Shown here piece after piece: positions 17,508 through 24,967 of a stretch of 64,000 nucleotides of DNA. Position 1 is the stretch's first letter. Each line of letters opens with the position of its first letter. The stretch is taken from NCBI RefSeq assembly GCF_000317535.1, contig NC_019757.1, positions 2,496,501 to 2,560,500 on the forward strand, written 5' to 3'. This DNA comes from Cylindrospermum stagnale PCC 7417 (lineage in GTDB: Bacteria > Cyanobacteriota > Cyanobacteriia > Cyanobacteriales > Nostocaceae). A program made the position numbers and the translations under genes. Under the pieces are notes generated by a model. The model worked only from the letters and a program-made list of their open reading frames with translations, was not told the DNA's origin and did no database searches.

Positions 17508-20500
17508 TTATCTTGGCTTACCTGTGATTGTGAATGCTGCCCAGTAGTAAGGATGATTATAAATCTTTTTATCGGGTTCTAATTTACTACTTCTATACAG
17601 TTGTGTGGCTAAATAAGCTCTGGTTCTAAAATCCTCTGGATGCAAAATATTCAATAAATCTTCATACCATGTTTTCAGTTCTACCGCAGTTAGCTCTTTT
17701 AGCCATGCTGTCGCTTCAGCTAAGGCTGTAGTTGCTGATTTATTTGGTTGTAGTCGTCGGTAAAATTCTATCATTACCAAAGTACTAGCAGATGATTCTA
17801 CAGTCCAGATTGTGCTGACTACATGGGGAACTCCACGACTCAGCAAACCAGTAGCTAAACCCACATATTCACTATTGATGTTCTGGTTGGTAGTACTGGC
17901 ATTTTCACAAGCCCAGAGGGTAAATAAGTTATAACTTGCTAGAGTGCGTTGGTAGATTTGTTCTAGGATAAGCTTGTCTTCATCGGCTAATGCCAATTCT
18001 GATTTTTTTGGATCACTGAAATTATTGATGCTATGACCCGTAAAATTAAATATATTTTTATTTGTAAATAAGGCATTTTCTACATTATTTTTACTTGCTT
18101 GTGAACCCTGGATGCGTTGGGAATTCTCAAACATTTTACTGACAATTTCTGAGGCAAATCTGGCAAACTTTGGCGGGGAATAACCTGTACTGTTGGGCTG
18201 TTCTACGCTGAGTAATTGCTGCTGCTGCCAAGAGAATAATGACTCTGTTTTTAAGCTCACCCCCATTTGGATGCTAGGCAGATAGGTAATGGTGCAATTC
18301 AATTCTAAACTTGGTAACTCTTCTTGAGAGGAGGAAGAAAGATGAAAAAGTGCATGAACAGGTAATCTGTACAAGTCACGGTGGGGAATTAAAATCAGTT
18401 GGGTGATGCCTTCGAGTTCTTGAGTAATGGTGGAAATATTCAGGATATTTTTTAACTGCACCAACCTTTTTTCCATATCCACTCGCCAGGAATGGTTGTT
18501 TTTTGTTTCTTGTTCTTGCTGGCGATATTCCTGGTATTGTTGATGCCAATCTTCCAACCAATTTTCAAAGTTAATTAAGCGTTGAACTGCTTCGGGTAGG
18601 GGAAATTTGGTTCTCTCTAAGGGTGTTGCGCCAACATCTTGTATGGGCGTAAACAACAAGATGGGTGATGGGGCTTGGTCTTTGATAATAAAAGTGTGTA
18701 AGGCGGCGGGGCTGATATGCCAGTAAACAATTGCTGTTGTAGGATTGAGCAGTTGTTGAACTGAGTGATAGTTGGGGGAGTAAATATCATCACTCCAACC
18801 AGAAAGTAGCCAAGTTGAACAGGTATTTTTTCCCTGTTCGGCGATTTGCCAAGCTTCTACTAAATCACCAGCAGCGACGGTTAAATCAACTGCTAATTGC
18901 CCCAAACCTGCAAATTTGAGTGCTAACTGTTTTTTGCTTTCATCAGGGCGAGTTGGTTCATTGAGTAATTGTCGCCATAAATCTATGCCGCTTTGCTGTA
19001 ATTCTTGTGCTGGTGCTGTATGTCCTAAGCCGATGAGTACTTTGACAAGGGATTGCAAGACTTCTAGATGCAATTGGGGAAAGTCTTCTGGTGTGAGGGT
19101 TAACAATGCCTGATCATATTCAGCTATGGCTTGAGTCCAATAATCGCGGGGTGTGGGCTGTTTTTTTCCTTGGTCGTAGTGAGTATTAGCGATCGCTAAA
19201 TGTAATCTACCCCAACCTTCTGGGTGGGTATCTGGGCGCAGATGTGTTAACCCTGCTTCTAAGCTGGCTAATTTTCCTTCATAGCCTCTCAAGTTCAGGA
19301 GGGGATTGGATGTACTAATAATTAAACTTTGAGATGGGTCAGAATTAACTAAATTAAGAGCGGCTGTACCTCTACCCATCCAAGCTTCCCAGTAGTCGAG
19401 TTTGATTTGTAAGGCGCTGTCGTAGGAGGCGATCGCTGCTTCAAATCGTTCTAAATAAAACAGTGCTACTGCTTGGTTATACCAAGCAAGGTGGAAATCA
19501 GATTTAATGGCGATCGCTTGTTCATAGGAGGCGATCGCTTCTTCGCGCCGTTCTAAGTTATCTAAGGCGATACCTCGGTTATACCAGGCTAGGTAAAGTT
19601 CTGGTTGAATTGAAAGTGCTTTATCCCAAGATTCAATAGCCTCTAACCAGCGTCCTAAATTAAATAACACCACACCCCGGTCAATCCAAACTTCTAAGTA
19701 GTCGGGTTGAATTAAAAGTGCTCGGTCATAGGAGGCGATCGCTTCTGCATATTGCTCGTCTACAGCCAGGGCTACCCCTCGGTAATACCAGTTCTCTGAA
19801 TCTTGTGGTTGCAGATTTAAAGCTTGGTCATAACTGGAAATTGCTTCCGATAACAATCCTAACTTGAGCAGCGCCAAACCCCGGCTAGACCAAGCTGCTG
19901 GATAGTCTGACTTGATTTTAATCGCCTTGTCGAAGGAGGCGATCGCTTCCTCAAAGTTGCCTAACTCTCCCTGAATTCCCCCGCGATTGTACCAAGCTTT
20001 GTAGAAGTCCGGTTTCAGTGCGATGGCTTGGTCATAATTGGCGATCGCTTCCGCAAAATATTCTAAATGAAATAGTGTCAAGCCCCGGTTAAACCAGTAA
20101 TCAGAGATATCGGGCTGAAATTCAATCGCTTGGTCATAAGACGCGATCGCACCTAATAAATCCCCTGTTCTAGCTTGCTGAAGACCTCGGTAAAACCATG
20201 CTTGCCCTTGGGTAGTCGCAGTTACTAAGGCTGTCGGTTGCTCAATGATCTCTTTTTTAGCAGACTGTAGATTATTGCTTTTTTGAATTGCCAATTCTGA
20301 GGCGAGTTGCTGAACTAAATTGGCACTTTGATCCAACCTCCCTAACAACTCATCTATGGCGTAAGCTACCTTTGGCTCCAAATTCACCAACGACTGATCC
20401 CTGGTTTCTTCTCCTGAAGATGCAGGGGGAGTAAGGCTAGGTTCTGGCGTTGCGGTTTCTTCTCCTGAAGATGCCGAGGGAGTAAGGATAGTTTCTGGCG

Positions 20501-21185
20501 TTGCGGTTTCGGCGTCTTCCCCGTCATCTTCCCAAATTAGTTCTCCTAAGTTGCCGATCTGATCAGCTTCAGAGGGAGCGAGGAATTCTACAAACTCTAA
20601 GTTAGCAGTCAAGTTTTCTTCAAAGGCAAGGTGATCTGCTGTGGTGATGGTAACTTCTTCGGAATCATCGAACCATAAGCGATCGCCTAATTTGCGGACT
20701 AACTCTTGCCCAGGAGAGTCTAGCAGGTTTTCGTTTGGCTCTGTGGATTCCAAGAGTTCTGGCTCCTCATCTCCATAATCTTTGCCTAAGTTTCGCCTCA
20801 AAAGCTGGATGCCAATGTCGTAAGCAAGTTCGCCAACTTTGCCGATTCCCAGTTCACCCAGTTGCACCATTCGCGTTGCTAATTGATGATTTGGTGCAGG
20901 TGAAGCTAGCAATTTTTCGCCAAACATCAGCAGCCAATCTATCCAGCGCTCAACAGTAATGCGATTTTCCATTCGCTGCAAATACTTCAGCGCCCACTGT
21001 TGTCCTCTGGCTTGATACACCCCTTCTAGCAATTGGGTAAACAAAAGCTCCAAATCCGCATTGGTGAGTTCAGGTGGTGCTTCTACCACCTTATGTATCC
21101 CGGCAGCGTTTAGAGAATGAGTCTGCTGACTGTCAAAGGGATGCTTCAAAAACCTGTCAAAACACTGCGATAGCCACCTGAGCAT
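17508..21185 (-). CDS. TPR-CHAT caspase-like protein
   Basis: The 1225-residue cytoplasmic protein has three parts. Residues 1-135 form a helical N-terminal domain (LELLFTQLLEGVYQARGQ, ERWIDWLLMFGEKLLAS) repeated in the next gene. After an acidic low-complexity linker with a 17-residue tandem repeat come about nine tetratricopeptide repeats (roughly residues 325-620, consensus AWYNRGxAL...EAIASYDQAL). The C-terminal CHAT domain has the caspase-like dyad His1051 in NFTGHS and Cys1093 in LWACENA, followed by VGLATGLLSRGVPHVVSTIW. CHAT proteases are often activated by partner proteins, and TPR-CHAT proteins act in type III-E CRISPR (Craspase) and other immune-like systems; no CRISPR genes occur here. 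The substrate is unknown. Confidence 0.88.
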   Translation of the reverse strand: MLRWLSQCFDRFLKHPFDSQQTHSLNAAGIHKVVEAPPELTNADLELLFTQLLEGVYQARGQQWALKYLQRMENRITVERWIDWLLMFGEKLLASPAPNHQLATRMVQLGELGIGKVGELAYDIGIQLLRRNLGKDYGDEEPELLESTEPNENLLDSPGQELVRKLGDRLWFDDSEEVTITTADHLAFEENLTANLEFVEFLAPSEADQIGNLGELIWEDDGEDAETATPETILTPSASSGEETATPEPSLTPPASSGEETRDQSLVNLEPKVAYAIDELLGRLDQSANLVQQLASELAIQKSNNLQSAKKEIIEQPTALVTATTQGQAWFYRGLQQARTGDLLGAIASYDQAIEFQPDISDYWFNRGLTLFHLEYFAEAIANYDQAIALKPDFYKAWYNRGGIQGELGNFEEAIASFDKAIKIKSDYPAAWSSRGLALLKLGLLSEAISSYDQALNLQPQDSENWYYRGVALAVDEQYAEAIASYDRALLIQPDYLEVWIDRGVVLFNLGRWLEAIESWDKALSIQPELYLAWYNRGIALDNLERREEAIASYEQAIAIKSDFHLAWYNQAVALFYLERFEAAIASYDSALQIKLDYWEAWMGRGTAALNLVNSDPSQSLIISTSNPLLNLRGYEGKLASLEAGLTHLRPDTHPEGWGRLHLAIANTHYDQGKKQPTPRDYWTQAIAEYDQALLTLTPEDFPQLHLEVLQSLVKVLIGLGHTAPAQELQQSGIDLWRQLLNEPTRPDESKKQLALKFAGLGQLAVDLTVAAGDLVEAWQIAEQGKNTCSTWLLSGWSDDIYSPNYHSVQQLLNPTTAIVYWHISPAALHTFIIKDQAPSPILLFTPIQDVGATPLERTKFPLPEAVQRLINFENWLEDWHQQYQEYRQQEQETKNNHSWRVDMEKRLVQLKNILNISTITQELEGITQLILIPHRDLYRLPVHALFHLSSSSQEELPSLELNCTITYLPSIQMGVSLKTESLFSWQQQQLLSVEQPNSTGYSPPKFARFASEIVSKMFENSQRIQGSQASKNNVENALFTNKNIFNFTGHSINNFSDPKKSELALADEDKLILEQIYQRTLASYNLFTLWACENASTTNQNINSEYVGLATGLLSRGVPHVVSTIWTVESSASTLVMIEFYRRLQPNKSATTALAEATAWLKELTAVELKTWYEDLLNILHPEDFRTRAYLATQLYRSSKLEPDKKIYNHPYYWAAFTITGKPR
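19429..20150. repeat. HIP1 octamers in register with TPR repeats
   Basis: GCGATCGC occurs at 19429, 19531, 19735, 19939, 20041 and 20143. All intervals are 102 or 204 nt, i.e. one or two 34-codon TPR units. On the coding strand the octamer supplies Ala-Ile-Ala of the EAIASYD helix. A further out-of-register copy lies at 19510. Confidence 0.9.
20403..20504. repeat. 51-nt tandem repeat in the TPR-CHAT gene
   Basis: Two adjacent 51-nt units (20403-20453 and 20454-20504) encode ETATPEPSLTPPASSGE and ETATPETILTPSASSGE in the linker between the N-terminal domain and the TPRs. The high identity suggests recent slippage or unequal exchange. Confidence 0.8.
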
Positions 21186-21390: not shown

Positions 21391-22080
21391 TTAATTATCT
21401 CTTGGCAACTCTTCCTCTTCTTCCTCTGGGGCAGATTCACCATTAGCCTGCAATTGGTCAATCAATGCCTGGATGAGAACTTCTGGATCATCTGTCTCAA
21501 TTGCTAACTGTTCGGCAACTTGCTGGCGTAAGTTTTCATCCTGCTGCAACATCAGAAATAACTCATCTAGGGTGACGGTTTGCAAATCTTCCCCTGGGAG
21601 GCTTTCTTCTAGTTCAATAGAGGTGTCTTGCCCCAGAAAGGTAGCAGCAAAAGCATCTGGCCCTTCATATTCCCATATTGGTTCGCCTTGAATTCGCGTC
21701 AACAGTTGCATACCAATATTGTATGCAACGTCGCCAACTTCACCGACACCCAAATCACCCAACTGCACTAACCGCGCTGCTAATTCATTATTAGGTGTAC
21801 GTGAAGCTAGCAATTTTTCACTAAAACGCTGTAACCACTCCACCCAGCGTTCTGTTGGGACGCGATGCTCAATATTATGCAGCCACTTTTGCGCCCACCC
21901 TTGTCCTCGTGCTTGATGCACTCCCTCTAAAAGATCGGTGAAGAGAAATTCCAGATCTGTATCGCTAAGGGGTGGCGCTAGTTCTTTTTGCACATTCACC
22001 CGATTTTGGGAGTGCGTCCGTTTTCCGCCAAACAAGCGTTGAAAAAACTTTTTGAGCCACTGAACTAGCCGCCTGAGCAT
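21391..22080 (-). CDS. stand-alone copy of the TPR-CHAT N-terminal domain
   Basis: The 229-residue protein is a paralogue of the first 135 residues of the downstream TPR-CHAT protein. Over about 90 aligned residues roughly 60% are identical by eye (LFTDLLEGVHQARGQGW, SEKLLAS, VQLGDLGVGEVGD). The ATG at 22080 is chosen because it matches the MLR start of the paralogue; the DNA just upstream of both starts is also nearly the same (CTGAGCATCTGC), so the duplication included the leader. The rest is acidic, ending in a poly-Glu tract (EEEEEELP). It lacks TPR and CHAT parts. It is 205 nt upstream on the same strand. An adaptor or regulator binding through the shared domain is a reasonable guess. 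Confidence 0.7.
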   Translation of the reverse strand: MLRRLVQWLKKFFQRLFGGKRTHSQNRVNVQKELAPPLSDTDLEFLFTDLLEGVHQARGQGWAQKWLHNIEHRVPTERWVEWLQRFSEKLLASRTPNNELAARLVQLGDLGVGEVGDVAYNIGMQLLTRIQGEPIWEYEGPDAFAATFLGQDTSIELEESLPGEDLQTVTLDELFLMLQQDENLRQQVAEQLAIETDDPEVLIQALIDQLQANGESAPEEEEEELPRDN

Positions 22081-22354
22081 CTGCCACACCATTGATTGTT
22101 GCTTGCTTAACCTAATTCACATTCTGCCACGGGGCTAAATTTTTTAACTAGAAATTTCTCACATCTACAGGATAAACGACCCAAAAGGGGATTGGGGAGA
22201 CAAAAGGAGAAATTTATTGAATTCGGCTCCTAGCATTAGCAATTACCAGCATTTTTAGGAGCGGGGAATTTCCATGAAGTTGTTAAAATAGGTGAACGCC
22301 AAACTCGACTGGGCGCTAAAAACCAACATTAAAAGGCATTGAAACTCTTTCTCC

Positions 22355-24967
22355 ATGTCTTACGAACCGCTGCACCACAAGTATCGCCCAAAGAGTTTTG
22401 CTGAACTGGTGGGACAAGAGGCGATCGCTACTACCCTCACAAACGCGATCGCCAGCGCGAAAATTGCCCCTGCCTATTTATTCACTGGCCCCAGAGGTAC
22501 GGGTAAAACTTCTAGCGCCCGGATTTTGGCAAAATCTCTTAATTGCCTCAAAGGTGACAAACCTACTGCTGACCCCTGCGGCATCTGTGATGTTTGTCAG
22601 GGAATCACCAAGGGCTATTCTACAGATGTGATTGAAATCGACGCTGCCAGCAACACTGGTGTCGATAATATCCGCGAACTGATTGAACGGGCGCAGTTTG
22701 CCCCTATGCAGTGTCGCTATAAGGTTTATGTGATTGATGAATGCCTAACTGGAGATTCCTTAGTTTTGACTAATGAGGGACTTGTCCGAATCGATGACCC
22801 TAATATCAAAGGATCTAAGGTTCTTAGTTACAATGACTCATTAGACAAGTGGGAATTTAAGCAGGTTGTTCGGTGGTTAGACCAAGGAGAACGGCAAACT
22901 CTTGTTATCAAGACAACTAACCGAGAAATTAGATGTACAGGTAATCATTTAATCAGGACAGACCAGGGATGGATACCAGCAAAAGCCGTAAAAGAAGGAG
23001 TGAAGATACTATCCCCTGCCAATGTGGATGCGGCACTTTCATTTACAAATTTGGTGTCGATGGACGAACCCGGAGATTTGTTAGCGGACACCAGTTTAAA
23101 GGCAATACCTACGGGCAAAAAACCTACAACCCTGAATCTATCCTTAAACAAGCTGAATTACTCCGACCTCTCTGTGCTTGCGGATGTGGGGAAAAGCTTG
23201 ATTGGCTGGCAGACCTCAAACAATATTCCATCCCCACAATGGATTACAAGTTTGGAAGTGGTCGAATCTGTTCACCTCGCTGGAGTTGAGCAAGTTTACG
23301 ATATTGAAGTTGAGGATAATCATAATTTTGTAGCTAATGGGCTTTTAGTGCATAACTGCCATATGCTCAGTACCCAGGCATTCAACGCGCTACTAAAAAC
23401 TCTGGAGGAACCACCGAAACACGTAGTCTTTGTCTTGGCGACAACTGACCCACAGCGAGTATTGCCGACGATTATTTCTCGCTGTCAAAGGTTCGATTTT
23501 AGACGGATTCAAATAGAGGCGATGGTCAAGCATTTAAGTGCGATCGCTAAAATAGAAAATATTCAGATTGCAGCAGAAGCCGTCACCTTGATAGCCCAAA
23601 TTTCTCAGGGAGGATTGCGGGATGCCGAAAGTCTACTTGACCAATTAGCTTTGTTATCGGGGGAAGTATCACCAGATAGCGTTTGGGATTTAGTCGGTTC
23701 GGTAAGTGAACGGGATTTGCTAGAACTGTTAAGTGCGATCGCTCAAGATCATGCCGAAGTTGTTCTGGACTACACCCGCAAAATCCTCGACCGTGGACGA
23801 GAACCTTTAACTATTCTCCAAAATCTCGCCGCATTCTACCGCGATTTGCTGATTGCTAAAACCGCACCTAACCGCCACGACTTGGTTGCTTGTACTCAGC
23901 AAACTTGGACAGCGCTGGTAGAGTTAGCCCAAAAGTTGGACATGAAAATAATTTTGGCTGGACAGCAACACCTGCGAACAGCAGAAGTGCAAATTAAAAA
24001 CACAACCCAGCCGCGTTTGTGGTTAGAGGTAACATTACTCGGATTGTTACCCAGTGCGACGAATATTCAACCACAAACCCCAAGTATCTCACAGCGAGTG
24101 AACACACCTGCTGTATCTTCAAGCTATCCTCCAGCAGTAGCCCAAAATCACCAAGTTGCTGCATCGCTAACAAATTATCCACCAACAAATCACAATCCTC
24201 CAGCAGTAGCCCAAAATCACCAAGTTTCTGCAACGCCAACAAATCAAAATTTAGCGGCTAACTCAGTTTCACCACCAACCCCAGAACCTGTATCTGTTCC
24301 TGTCCCACCTGCAATCATTGAACCAGTAATCCCAGTATTACCCTCAACTGAGTACACTCAAGTTTGGCAACAGGTACGTGGCAATATCCAGCAGTTCTCC
24401 ACACAAGCTTTACTGGGGCAAATGTGCCATCTCATTGAGTTTGATGGTGCTGTGGCTCGTATTGGTGTTCAACCTAAGTGGTATGAAAAAGTTAAATCTT
24501 ATCTGCCTATAATTACAGCAGCTTTCCAGCAGACCTTCCAGCGTGAAGTTCGGGTAAATCTAGAACAAGGAACTGCTGCAACTCCTACTTCAGCTAAAAC
24601 ACCCCCTCCATCAAAAGACTCTAATCGCGTTCAGCAGCTAGCTACACCCAGCTACGAAAGGCAAATGCCGCCGCTAACGCCACAACCAATACCACAACCG
24701 ATACCACAACCAACACCACAACCAACGCCAGCAAAAATCGAGTCAGTGGCAACTAATACAGGAATCGTGCAAACTTTGCCACCACCGCAACAACCGCTAA
24801 CACCCGTAGCTAATTACCAAAATGAGGAAGTAGAAGGTGCAGCTAAACGGCTAGCAAAATTTTTCGACGGTCAAATCATCCGCCTCTCCCATGATGCAAT
24901 AGATTACTCTGAAACTGTCACTGTGCCTGATTCAGTATATGAATCAGAAATTGATGATGATTGGTGA
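22355..24967 (+). CDS. dnaX: DNA polymerase III gamma/tau subunit with intein
   Basis: DnaX is the clamp-loader ATPase that loads the sliding clamp and organises the replisome. The precursor has 870 residues. Walker A GPRGTGKT is at 45-52, followed by a Cys-rich zinc module around residues 64-82. The Walker B segment VYVIDE (to E129) is directly followed by an intein (C130-N334), after which the extein resumes with C335-HMLSTQAFNALLKTLEEPP. Removing the 205-residue intein leaves a 665-residue mature protein. After the ATPase and collar domains (to about residue 570) comes a Pro/Gln-rich linker with internal repeats and a short C-terminal tail. The intein site, right after the DE of Walker B, means that unspliced protein should be inactive as a clamp loader. 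Confidence 0.95.
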   Translation: MSYEPLHHKYRPKSFAELVGQEAIATTLTNAIASAKIAPAYLFTGPRGTGKTSSARILAKSLNCLKGDKPTADPCGICDVCQGITKGYSTDVIEIDAASNTGVDNIRELIERAQFAPMQCRYKVYVIDECLTGDSLVLTNEGLVRIDDPNIKGSKVLSYNDSLDKWEFKQVVRWLDQGERQTLVIKTTNREIRCTGNHLIRTDQGWIPAKAVKEGVKILSPANVDAALSFTNLVSMDEPGDLLADTSLKAIPTGKKPTTLNLSLNKLNYSDLSVLADVGKSLIGWQTSNNIPSPQWITSLEVVESVHLAGVEQVYDIEVEDNHNFVANGLLVHNCHMLSTQAFNALLKTLEEPPKHVVFVLATTDPQRVLPTIISRCQRFDFRRIQIEAMVKHLSAIAKIENIQIAAEAVTLIAQISQGGLRDAESLLDQLALLSGEVSPDSVWDLVGSVSERDLLELLSAIAQDHAEVVLDYTRKILDRGREPLTILQNLAAFYRDLLIAKTAPNRHDLVACTQQTWTALVELAQKLDMKIILAGQQHLRTAEVQIKNTTQPRLWLEVTLLGLLPSATNIQPQTPSISQRVNTPAVSSSYPPAVAQNHQVAASLTNYPPTNHNPPAVAQNHQVSATPTNQNLAANSVSPPTPEPVSVPVPPAIIEPVIPVLPSTEYTQVWQQVRGNIQQFSTQALLGQMCHLIEFDGAVARIGVQPKWYEKVKSYLPIITAAFQQTFQREVRVNLEQGTAATPTSAKTPPPSKDSNRVQQLATPSYERQMPPLTPQPIPQPIPQPTPQPTPAKIESVATNTGIVQTLPPPQQPLTPVANYQNEEVEGAAKRLAKFFDGQIIRLSHDAIDYSETVTVPDSVYESEIDDDW
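22742..23356 (+). other. intein in DnaX
   Basis: The 205-codon intervening segment begins with Cys130 (block A, CLTGDSLVL), contains the block B T-x-x-H in CTGNHLI, and ends with block F/G VYDIEVEDNHNFVANGLLVHN followed by extein Cys335. All residues required for splicing (Cys1, block B Thr/His, penultimate His, terminal Asn, +1 Cys) are present, so splicing should work. Cyanobacterial DnaX inteins at this site are known. No LAGLIDADG motif is present in the main frame; the middle has no recognisable protein sequence in that frame (see the next entry). Confidence 0.92.
22969..23289 (+). pseudogene. out-of-frame zinc-finger/homing-endonuclease-like segment in the intein
   Basis: In the frame shifted by two bases relative to dnaX, an open stretch of 106 codons encodes two similar Cys-rich modules: PCQCGCGTF...RRFVSGHQFKG (Cys codons from 23017) and LCACGCGEKLDW (from 23173), 52 codons apart. 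C-x-C-G-C-G followed by a GRxRRFVSGH segment is typical of zinc-binding parts of phage and intein HNH-type endonucleases. No HNH catalytic motif follows. The simplest reading is a once in-frame endonuclease insert displaced by compensating indels near 23010 and 23265, the splice frame having been kept. A separately translated small protein from ATG 22969 is possible, but only a weak ribosome site precedes it. Confidence 0.65.
24128..24226. repeat. direct repeat in the dnaX linker
   Basis: An identical 30-nt segment occurs at 24128-24157 and 24197-24226 (period 69 nt), encoding PPAVAQNHQV twice in the Pro-rich linker. A second short repeat (PQPIPQPIPQPTPQPTP) lies near 24679-24730. Both reflect expansion of a flexible tether. 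Confidence 0.75.

Follow-up and report, generated by a model that had tools for sequence, protein, structure and literature searches.

Evidence for a LAGLIDADG_2 endonuclease gene overprinted in the −1 frame of the cyanobacterial DnaX intein, with a decayed copy in Cylindrospermum stagnale PCC 7417

Introduction

PI-SceI is a canonical bifunctional intein, with an in-frame LAGLIDADG domain, and in fractured genes a homing endonuclease gene lies between the two parts of a split intein. The subject here is the intein of dnaX (DNA polymerase III gamma/tau) in a stretch of 64,000 nucleotides from Cylindrospermum stagnale PCC 7417 (NC_019757.1, forward strand positions 2,496,501 to 2,560,500), called the window below, with coordinates counted from its first letter. 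We put at about 0.9 the probability that a LAGLIDADG_2 endonuclease gene is nested by overprinting in the −1 frame of this DnaX intein, and that the window holds a decayed copy of it.

The closest canonical inteins are the RNA-ligase inteins of Pseudaeromonas phage KLEP7 and of Miltoncostaea, which contain a homologous endonuclease in frame. Like the DnaX intein, they join Hint and LAGLIDADG in one element, but they translate the endonuclease in frame, whereas DnaX has it as a separate −1 gene, with predicted disordered filler as the in-frame middle. The Ssp DnaX intein of Synechocystis PCC 6803, which we take to be 430 residues long, lies in the same host gene and would have the same length as the intact inteins described here. 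In a 150-residue form divided into two pieces, the Synechocystis DnaX intein trans-splices (PMC3443213). The window intein, which retains its splicing residues, is predicted to splice.

A hidden out-of-frame endonuclease has been described in the ShiLan-type insertion of phage DNA methylases (Arsenault et al. 2025, PMC11855218). As in DnaX, the insert is open and meaningless in the host frame, holds a complete homing endonuclease in another frame, and has no clear ribosome-binding site. The differences are that the ShiLan enzyme is HNH and the DnaX enzyme LAGLIDADG_2; that ShiLan is, according to its authors, without intein or intron, while the DnaX insert is bracketed by Hint parts with intact splicing residues; and that ShiLan is mainly a phage element, while the DnaX case is chromosomal in cyanobacteria and comes with a statistical proof of dual-frame constraint. 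We considered assigning DnaX to the ShiLan type and rejected it, since that type has HNH and no splicing domain and DnaX has LAGLIDADG_2 and a Hint domain. The same paper cites Gorbalenya 1998 (Non-canonical inteins, NAR 26:1741) beside overlapping frames, and that article may describe the DnaX case. Our literature search found no earlier DnaX report in what it covered, which did not include Gorbalenya 1998 or the Gosselin 2025 preprint, so that priority for the basic out-of-frame arrangement is uncertain. Nothing in the covered literature reports the codon-level dual-frame proof, the breadth of occurrence, the match to phage FoX3 or the link to fractured genes.

The DnaX intein of the window

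The features on which the argument depends are these.

22355 to 24967, plus strand: dnaX, a single open frame of 870 codons, intein included
22742 to 23356, plus strand: DnaX intein, 205 residues in the dnaX frame, splicing residues kept, matching Pfam Intein_splicing
22742 to 23023, plus strand: N-terminal Hint part, residues 1 to 94 of the full-length intein, delimited from the model of a full-length relative
23234 to 23356, plus strand: C-terminal Hint part, the last 41 intein residues
22967 to 22972, plus strand: GGATGG, the intein-frame Gly-Trp codons, whose internal ATG presumably starts the nested gene
22969 to 23289, plus strand: −1-frame remnant open reading frame (ORF), 106 codons and a stop, the fused ends of the nested LAGLIDADG_2 endonuclease gene
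23017 to 23034, plus strand: first CxCGCG module (CQCGCG), −1 frame, in bases that also encode the end of N-Hint
23173 to 23190, plus strand: second CxCGCG module (CACGCG), −1 frame

The intein interrupts dnaX at the Walker B motif (VYVIDE|CHM) and has the class 1 Hint signature, with C1, block B TGNH, terminal HN and the +1 Cys. The dnaX frame and the −1 frame are both open across 321 nt, and the −1-frame ORF also encodes GRTRRFVSGH. On the −1-frame ORF the first-pass annotation, made from the letters of the stretch, was accurate: it had placed the ORF, its modules and GRTRRFVSGH as given here, and had reported intact splicing blocks in the dnaX frame.

Full-length relatives

The 106-residue product was compared with 100 whole genomes, that of the window plus 99 relatives, giving 23 genome matches, in many of which the same frame extends to about 335 codons. 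Twenty-two of the 99 other genomes have a match, and in 10 the E value is about 1e-31 or better. Scanning named genomes adds breadth, with 64 cyanobacterial loci encoding a relative of the endonuclease (in Nostoc, Anabaena, Calothrix, Microcoleus, Planktothrix, Phormidesmis, Pleurocapsa and other genera), most of the top ones spanning the full 331 residues and most sitting at the same position in dnaX.

Intein ends are recognisable at 62 loci, and 34 of these have a full-length intein of 429 to 431 residues, which in 32 cases is exactly 1290 nt long. The dnaX frame contains no stop in any of the 34. The nested −1 ORF of about 331 codons is intact in 29, where 333 to 360 codons of the −1 frame are open, and it is broken in the other five, by one nonsense codon in L038, L040, L044 and L049 and by two in L043; counted among the inteins of exactly 1290 nt, 27 have the intact ORF and 5 have nonsense codons. 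Across 20 aligned full-length relatives, C1, block B TxxH, terminal HN and the +1 nucleophile are invariant, and all 20 match Pfam Intein_splicing, while the nested ATG is kept in all 32 relatives with 1290-nt inteins. The full-length −1 arrangement spans several cyanobacterial orders. A nested gene, which had been offered as the second choice in the first-pass annotation, is the correct description of these relatives.

Selection in the two reading frames

In the middle of the overlap, amino acid identity among relatives is 72% in the endonuclease frame, compared with 50% in the dnaX frame and 49.5% in the unused third frame, and nucleotide differences at endonuclease codon positions 1, 2 and 3 are.21,.14 and.41. 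The pattern shifts to the dnaX frame in the Hint flanks, and at both overlapping ends the variability at endonuclease position 3 falls to.20–.27. By these figures, protein-level selection in the middle region acts on the endonuclease frame only, and the main-frame middle, at 50% identity and with predicted disorder, is not the conserved region that would have counted against the first-pass annotation.

In this region the dnaX frame is held only to freedom from stop codons, and strictly so. Synonymous shuffling predicts 5.2 dnaX-frame stops per sequence and extein codon usage predicts 11.6, against 0 observed. No endonuclease NTA codon stands before a purine (0/186, whereas the exteins have 1029/1557; p = 7e-80), and no NTG codon before A (0/321, whereas the exteins have 258/1204). 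Eleven control ORFs for related endonucleases or LAGLIDADG_2 proteins, whether in-frame, free-standing or from fractured genes, have 7 to 38 stops in the equivalent frame, matching shuffling. Both frames are open and constrained in several lineages, which is the mark of an overprinted gene.

Identity of the endonuclease

The −1 product of a full-length relative matches LAGLIDADG_2 (Pfam PF03161) with E = 2.8e-22 and 79.9 bits against a cut-off of 25; the 106-residue remnant of the window has no Pfam LAGLIDADG_2 match because endonuclease codons 79 to 303 are deleted from it. Two acidic motifs, GTLLGD and W-W-x-x-DDG, are invariant in the relatives. The predicted structure of a relative's endonuclease has a predicted local distance difference test (pLDDT) score of about 90 across most of residues 121 to 310, and Foldseek matches it to I-WcaI and I-SceI at E ~ 2e-11. 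The dnaX-frame model of a full-length relative has the opposite character in its middle, where residues 95 to 389 score below 50 and are predicted disordered, while the Hint parts fold well, N-Hint with about 82–94 to residue 90 and at least 50 to residue 94.

The proposal that the out-of-frame reading is a homing endonuclease with zinc-like modules is borne out by the strong homologues in relatives. Its assignment to the HNH type has to be withdrawn in favor of LAGLIDADG_2 on the Pfam and fold evidence, since neither the 106-residue nor the full-length product matches any HNH family in Pfam, PHROGs or NCBIfam.

A PF03161 survey of the relatives turned up only dnaX copies and free-standing genes, and an Rfam scan of the relatives' loci gave no match. 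In several cyanobacteria a free-standing LAGLIDADG_2 ORF of 226 to 249 residues has a similar intergenic position, with no Rfam intron (L113, L119, L123 and L124, and also L134–L136); it is possibly a domesticated endonuclease. L132 and L133 have LAGLIDADG_2 ORFs of ~328 residues with an N-terminal cysteine-rich part of a different type, followed directly and in frame by another long ORF in L132.

Decay of the window copy

Aligned with each of its ten closest full-length relatives, the window intein has one 675-bp gap at the same breakpoint and no further indel.

22969 to 23202, plus strand: endonuclease codons 1 to 78, the N-terminal zinc-module region, retained
23202 to 23203, no strand: deletion junction, a single 675-bp in-frame loss of endonuclease codons 79 to 303
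23203 to 23286, plus strand: endonuclease codons 304 to 331, retained

Both LAGLIDADG catalytic motifs are lost and the splicing blocks are kept, so by its sequence the window intein is a decayed copy of an intein with an overprinted endonuclease. The 28 other shortened inteins have 25 distinct combinations of gap and breakpoint, with every gap a multiple of 3 and a floor at about 137–139 residues, and the nonsense-broken endonuclease frames of full-length inteins represent the step that precedes deletion. The intein is found in dnaX of about 30 of the 100 relatives and is apparently missing from a genome of the same genus (G002). Patchy presence together with a decay series fits the life cycle expected of a homing element.

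Two lesser items complete the locus. The host gene flanks the intein on both sides, and two neighboring genes on the minus strand, at 17508–21185 and 21391–22092, have similar N-terminal segments (RWLSQCFDRF... and RRLVQWLKKFF...), suggesting a partial duplication.

22355 to 22741, plus strand: N-extein of dnaX
23357 to 24967, plus strand: C-extein of dnaX

Proposed mechanism and alternative explanations

The dnaX frame of an intact intein reads as Hint, then about 295 residues of meaningless linker, then Hint, and the same DNA in the −1 frame encodes the 331-residue LAGLIDADG_2 endonuclease, with its presumed ATG inside the Hint Gly-Trp codons and its tail overlapping C-Hint. In the mechanism that we propose, ribosomes on the dnaX mRNA would begin translating the nested gene at the ATG within GGATGG, and the enzyme would cut dnaX alleles that have no intein, with repair copying the intein in and the intein spreading, while DnaX precursors would splice normally. 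After saturation, the nuclease would decay through nonsense codons and deletions of multiples of 3, the splice frame being protected throughout, DnaX being essential.

Several points weigh against this account. Translation of the nested gene is deduced from its sequence, and a conserved Shine-Dalgarno upstream of the nested ATG was not found, AGG being no commoner there in intact than in deleted inteins. Selection for a Shine-Dalgarno was entertained on the ground that AGG is enriched at the Arg codon before the ATG, and was rejected when the enrichment proved to be equal at another Arg and greater in deleted inteins. The nested ATG is dictated by the conserved Hint Gly-Trp, and its conservation is for that reason no proof of initiation. 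DNA cleavage by the enzyme is putative, as is zinc binding by the zinc-like CxCGCG modules. By pairwise third-position comparison, intein and extein have diverged largely in parallel, and a single pair (Dendronalium versus Nostoc) is a clear candidate for transfer; for this reason recent homing is only weakly supported.

The alternative that survives best, still an unlikely one, concerns how the enzyme is made: −1 ribosomal frameshifting out of the dnaX frame would give a fusion of N-DnaX, N-Hint and endonuclease. The −1 ribosomal frameshift of Escherichia coli dnaX is well known, and the nested frame here lies in the same direction. There is also an in-phase heptamer near endonuclease codon 26.

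23047 to 23053, plus strand: A AAT TTG, in phase, a possible −1 slippery site, also in 20 of 32 full-length relatives and not conserved

This is the only recurrent slippery heptamer, however, and it is absent from the other 12 of the 32, while 10 have no in-phase X XXY YYZ heptamer anywhere in codons 70 to 110. Frameshifting at A AAT TTG would moreover skip the first CxCGCG module, and the two proteins, both conserved in sequence, also force the heptamer.

Considerably less probable is the idea that the 106-residue remnant is itself a functional small protein, such as a domesticated zinc-binding peptide. Its ORF is open and both CxCGCG modules are intact, yet that openness is explained by a recent deletion of a multiple of 3, and the first module lies over Hint-constrained sequence. 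Other deleted inteins differ in their breakpoints, many with stops in the remnant, and a congener (G001) has lost the GHQFK region and the second module.

We reject the explanation preferred in the first-pass annotation, by which compensating indels shifted an in-frame endonuclease domain out of frame, with the window as a snapshot of such decay. The window endonuclease is truly out of frame and dead, but its only indel is the 675-bp deletion; intact relatives in several orders share the −1 relation, with 32 of 34 inteins at exactly 1290 nt; and the −1 frame is under purifying selection. Because there are no compensating indels and intact relatives hold the endonuclease in the same −1 frame, the out-of-frame state appears to be a functional arrangement and no sign of decay; the part of the earlier proposal that stands is that the window copy is a decayed remnant. 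A chance open frame in a low-stop region has nothing for it beyond the shortness of the window remnant and can be dismissed in view of the homologous 331-residue ORFs, with their Pfam and fold matches and strong constraint.

Phage counterparts and fractured genes

The nested endonuclease gene has a counterpart in Xanthomonas phage FoX3, in the helicase gp40, where an intein with Gly-Trp at residue 76 contains a −1-frame LAGLIDADG_2 gene. This gene has a GTG start at intein nt 228, the coordinate of the DnaX ATG, and the host frame is open across it. The DnaX and FoX3 Hint parts are 27–29% identical and the endonucleases about 35%. Taken alone, stop avoidance in FoX3 is marginal, at P = 0.06 by synonymous shuffling and 0.0005 by extein codon usage. 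Scanning IMG/VR gave no close relative with query A1, and the FoX3 protein matched only FoX3 itself.

Escherichia phage ES and Pectobacterium phage Ymer have a homologous CKCGCG gene, also −1, between the N-Hint and C-Hint of a helicase. The order is that of DnaX, N-Hint, then the −1-frame LAGLIDADG_2 gene, then C-Hint, with overlap at both ends, but the host frame, open in DnaX and FoX3, is closed there by 8 to 11 stops, making these fractured genes with split inteins. With the host frame closed, only trans-splicing can restore the host protein. At L125:1749-3241 and L129:2117-5227, an intein with which a −1-frame endonuclease overlaps splits a phage helicase gene, and the N-terminal helicase halves are annotated as 'minor tail protein' or 'hypothetical protein'.

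From these sequences we infer that the overprinted and fractured forms lie on one continuum, which could have been traveled in either direction. The larger proposal, that a −1-overprinted LAGLIDADG gene is a stable intein architecture, homologous between cyanobacterial chromosomes and phages and continuous with fractured genes, is tentative, and we rate its chances at slightly less than even. If it is true, one host-frame stop would split the intein and leave a free endonuclease gene between its two parts, and overprinting may be a route to split inteins, or the reverse.

Significance

Long, fully nested genes on the same strand are considered very rare in bacteria, and standard annotation misses them. 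The DnaX case would be a rare natural example, with ~1,000 bases read in two frames and a clean dual-frame signature in several orders, and it would explain the large unrecognisable middle of these DnaX inteins. It indicates that a mobile element can conceal an endonuclease in the second frame of an essential gene, and it suggests a path, open to testing, by which ordinary inteins could give rise to the split inteins that have wide use in biotechnology.
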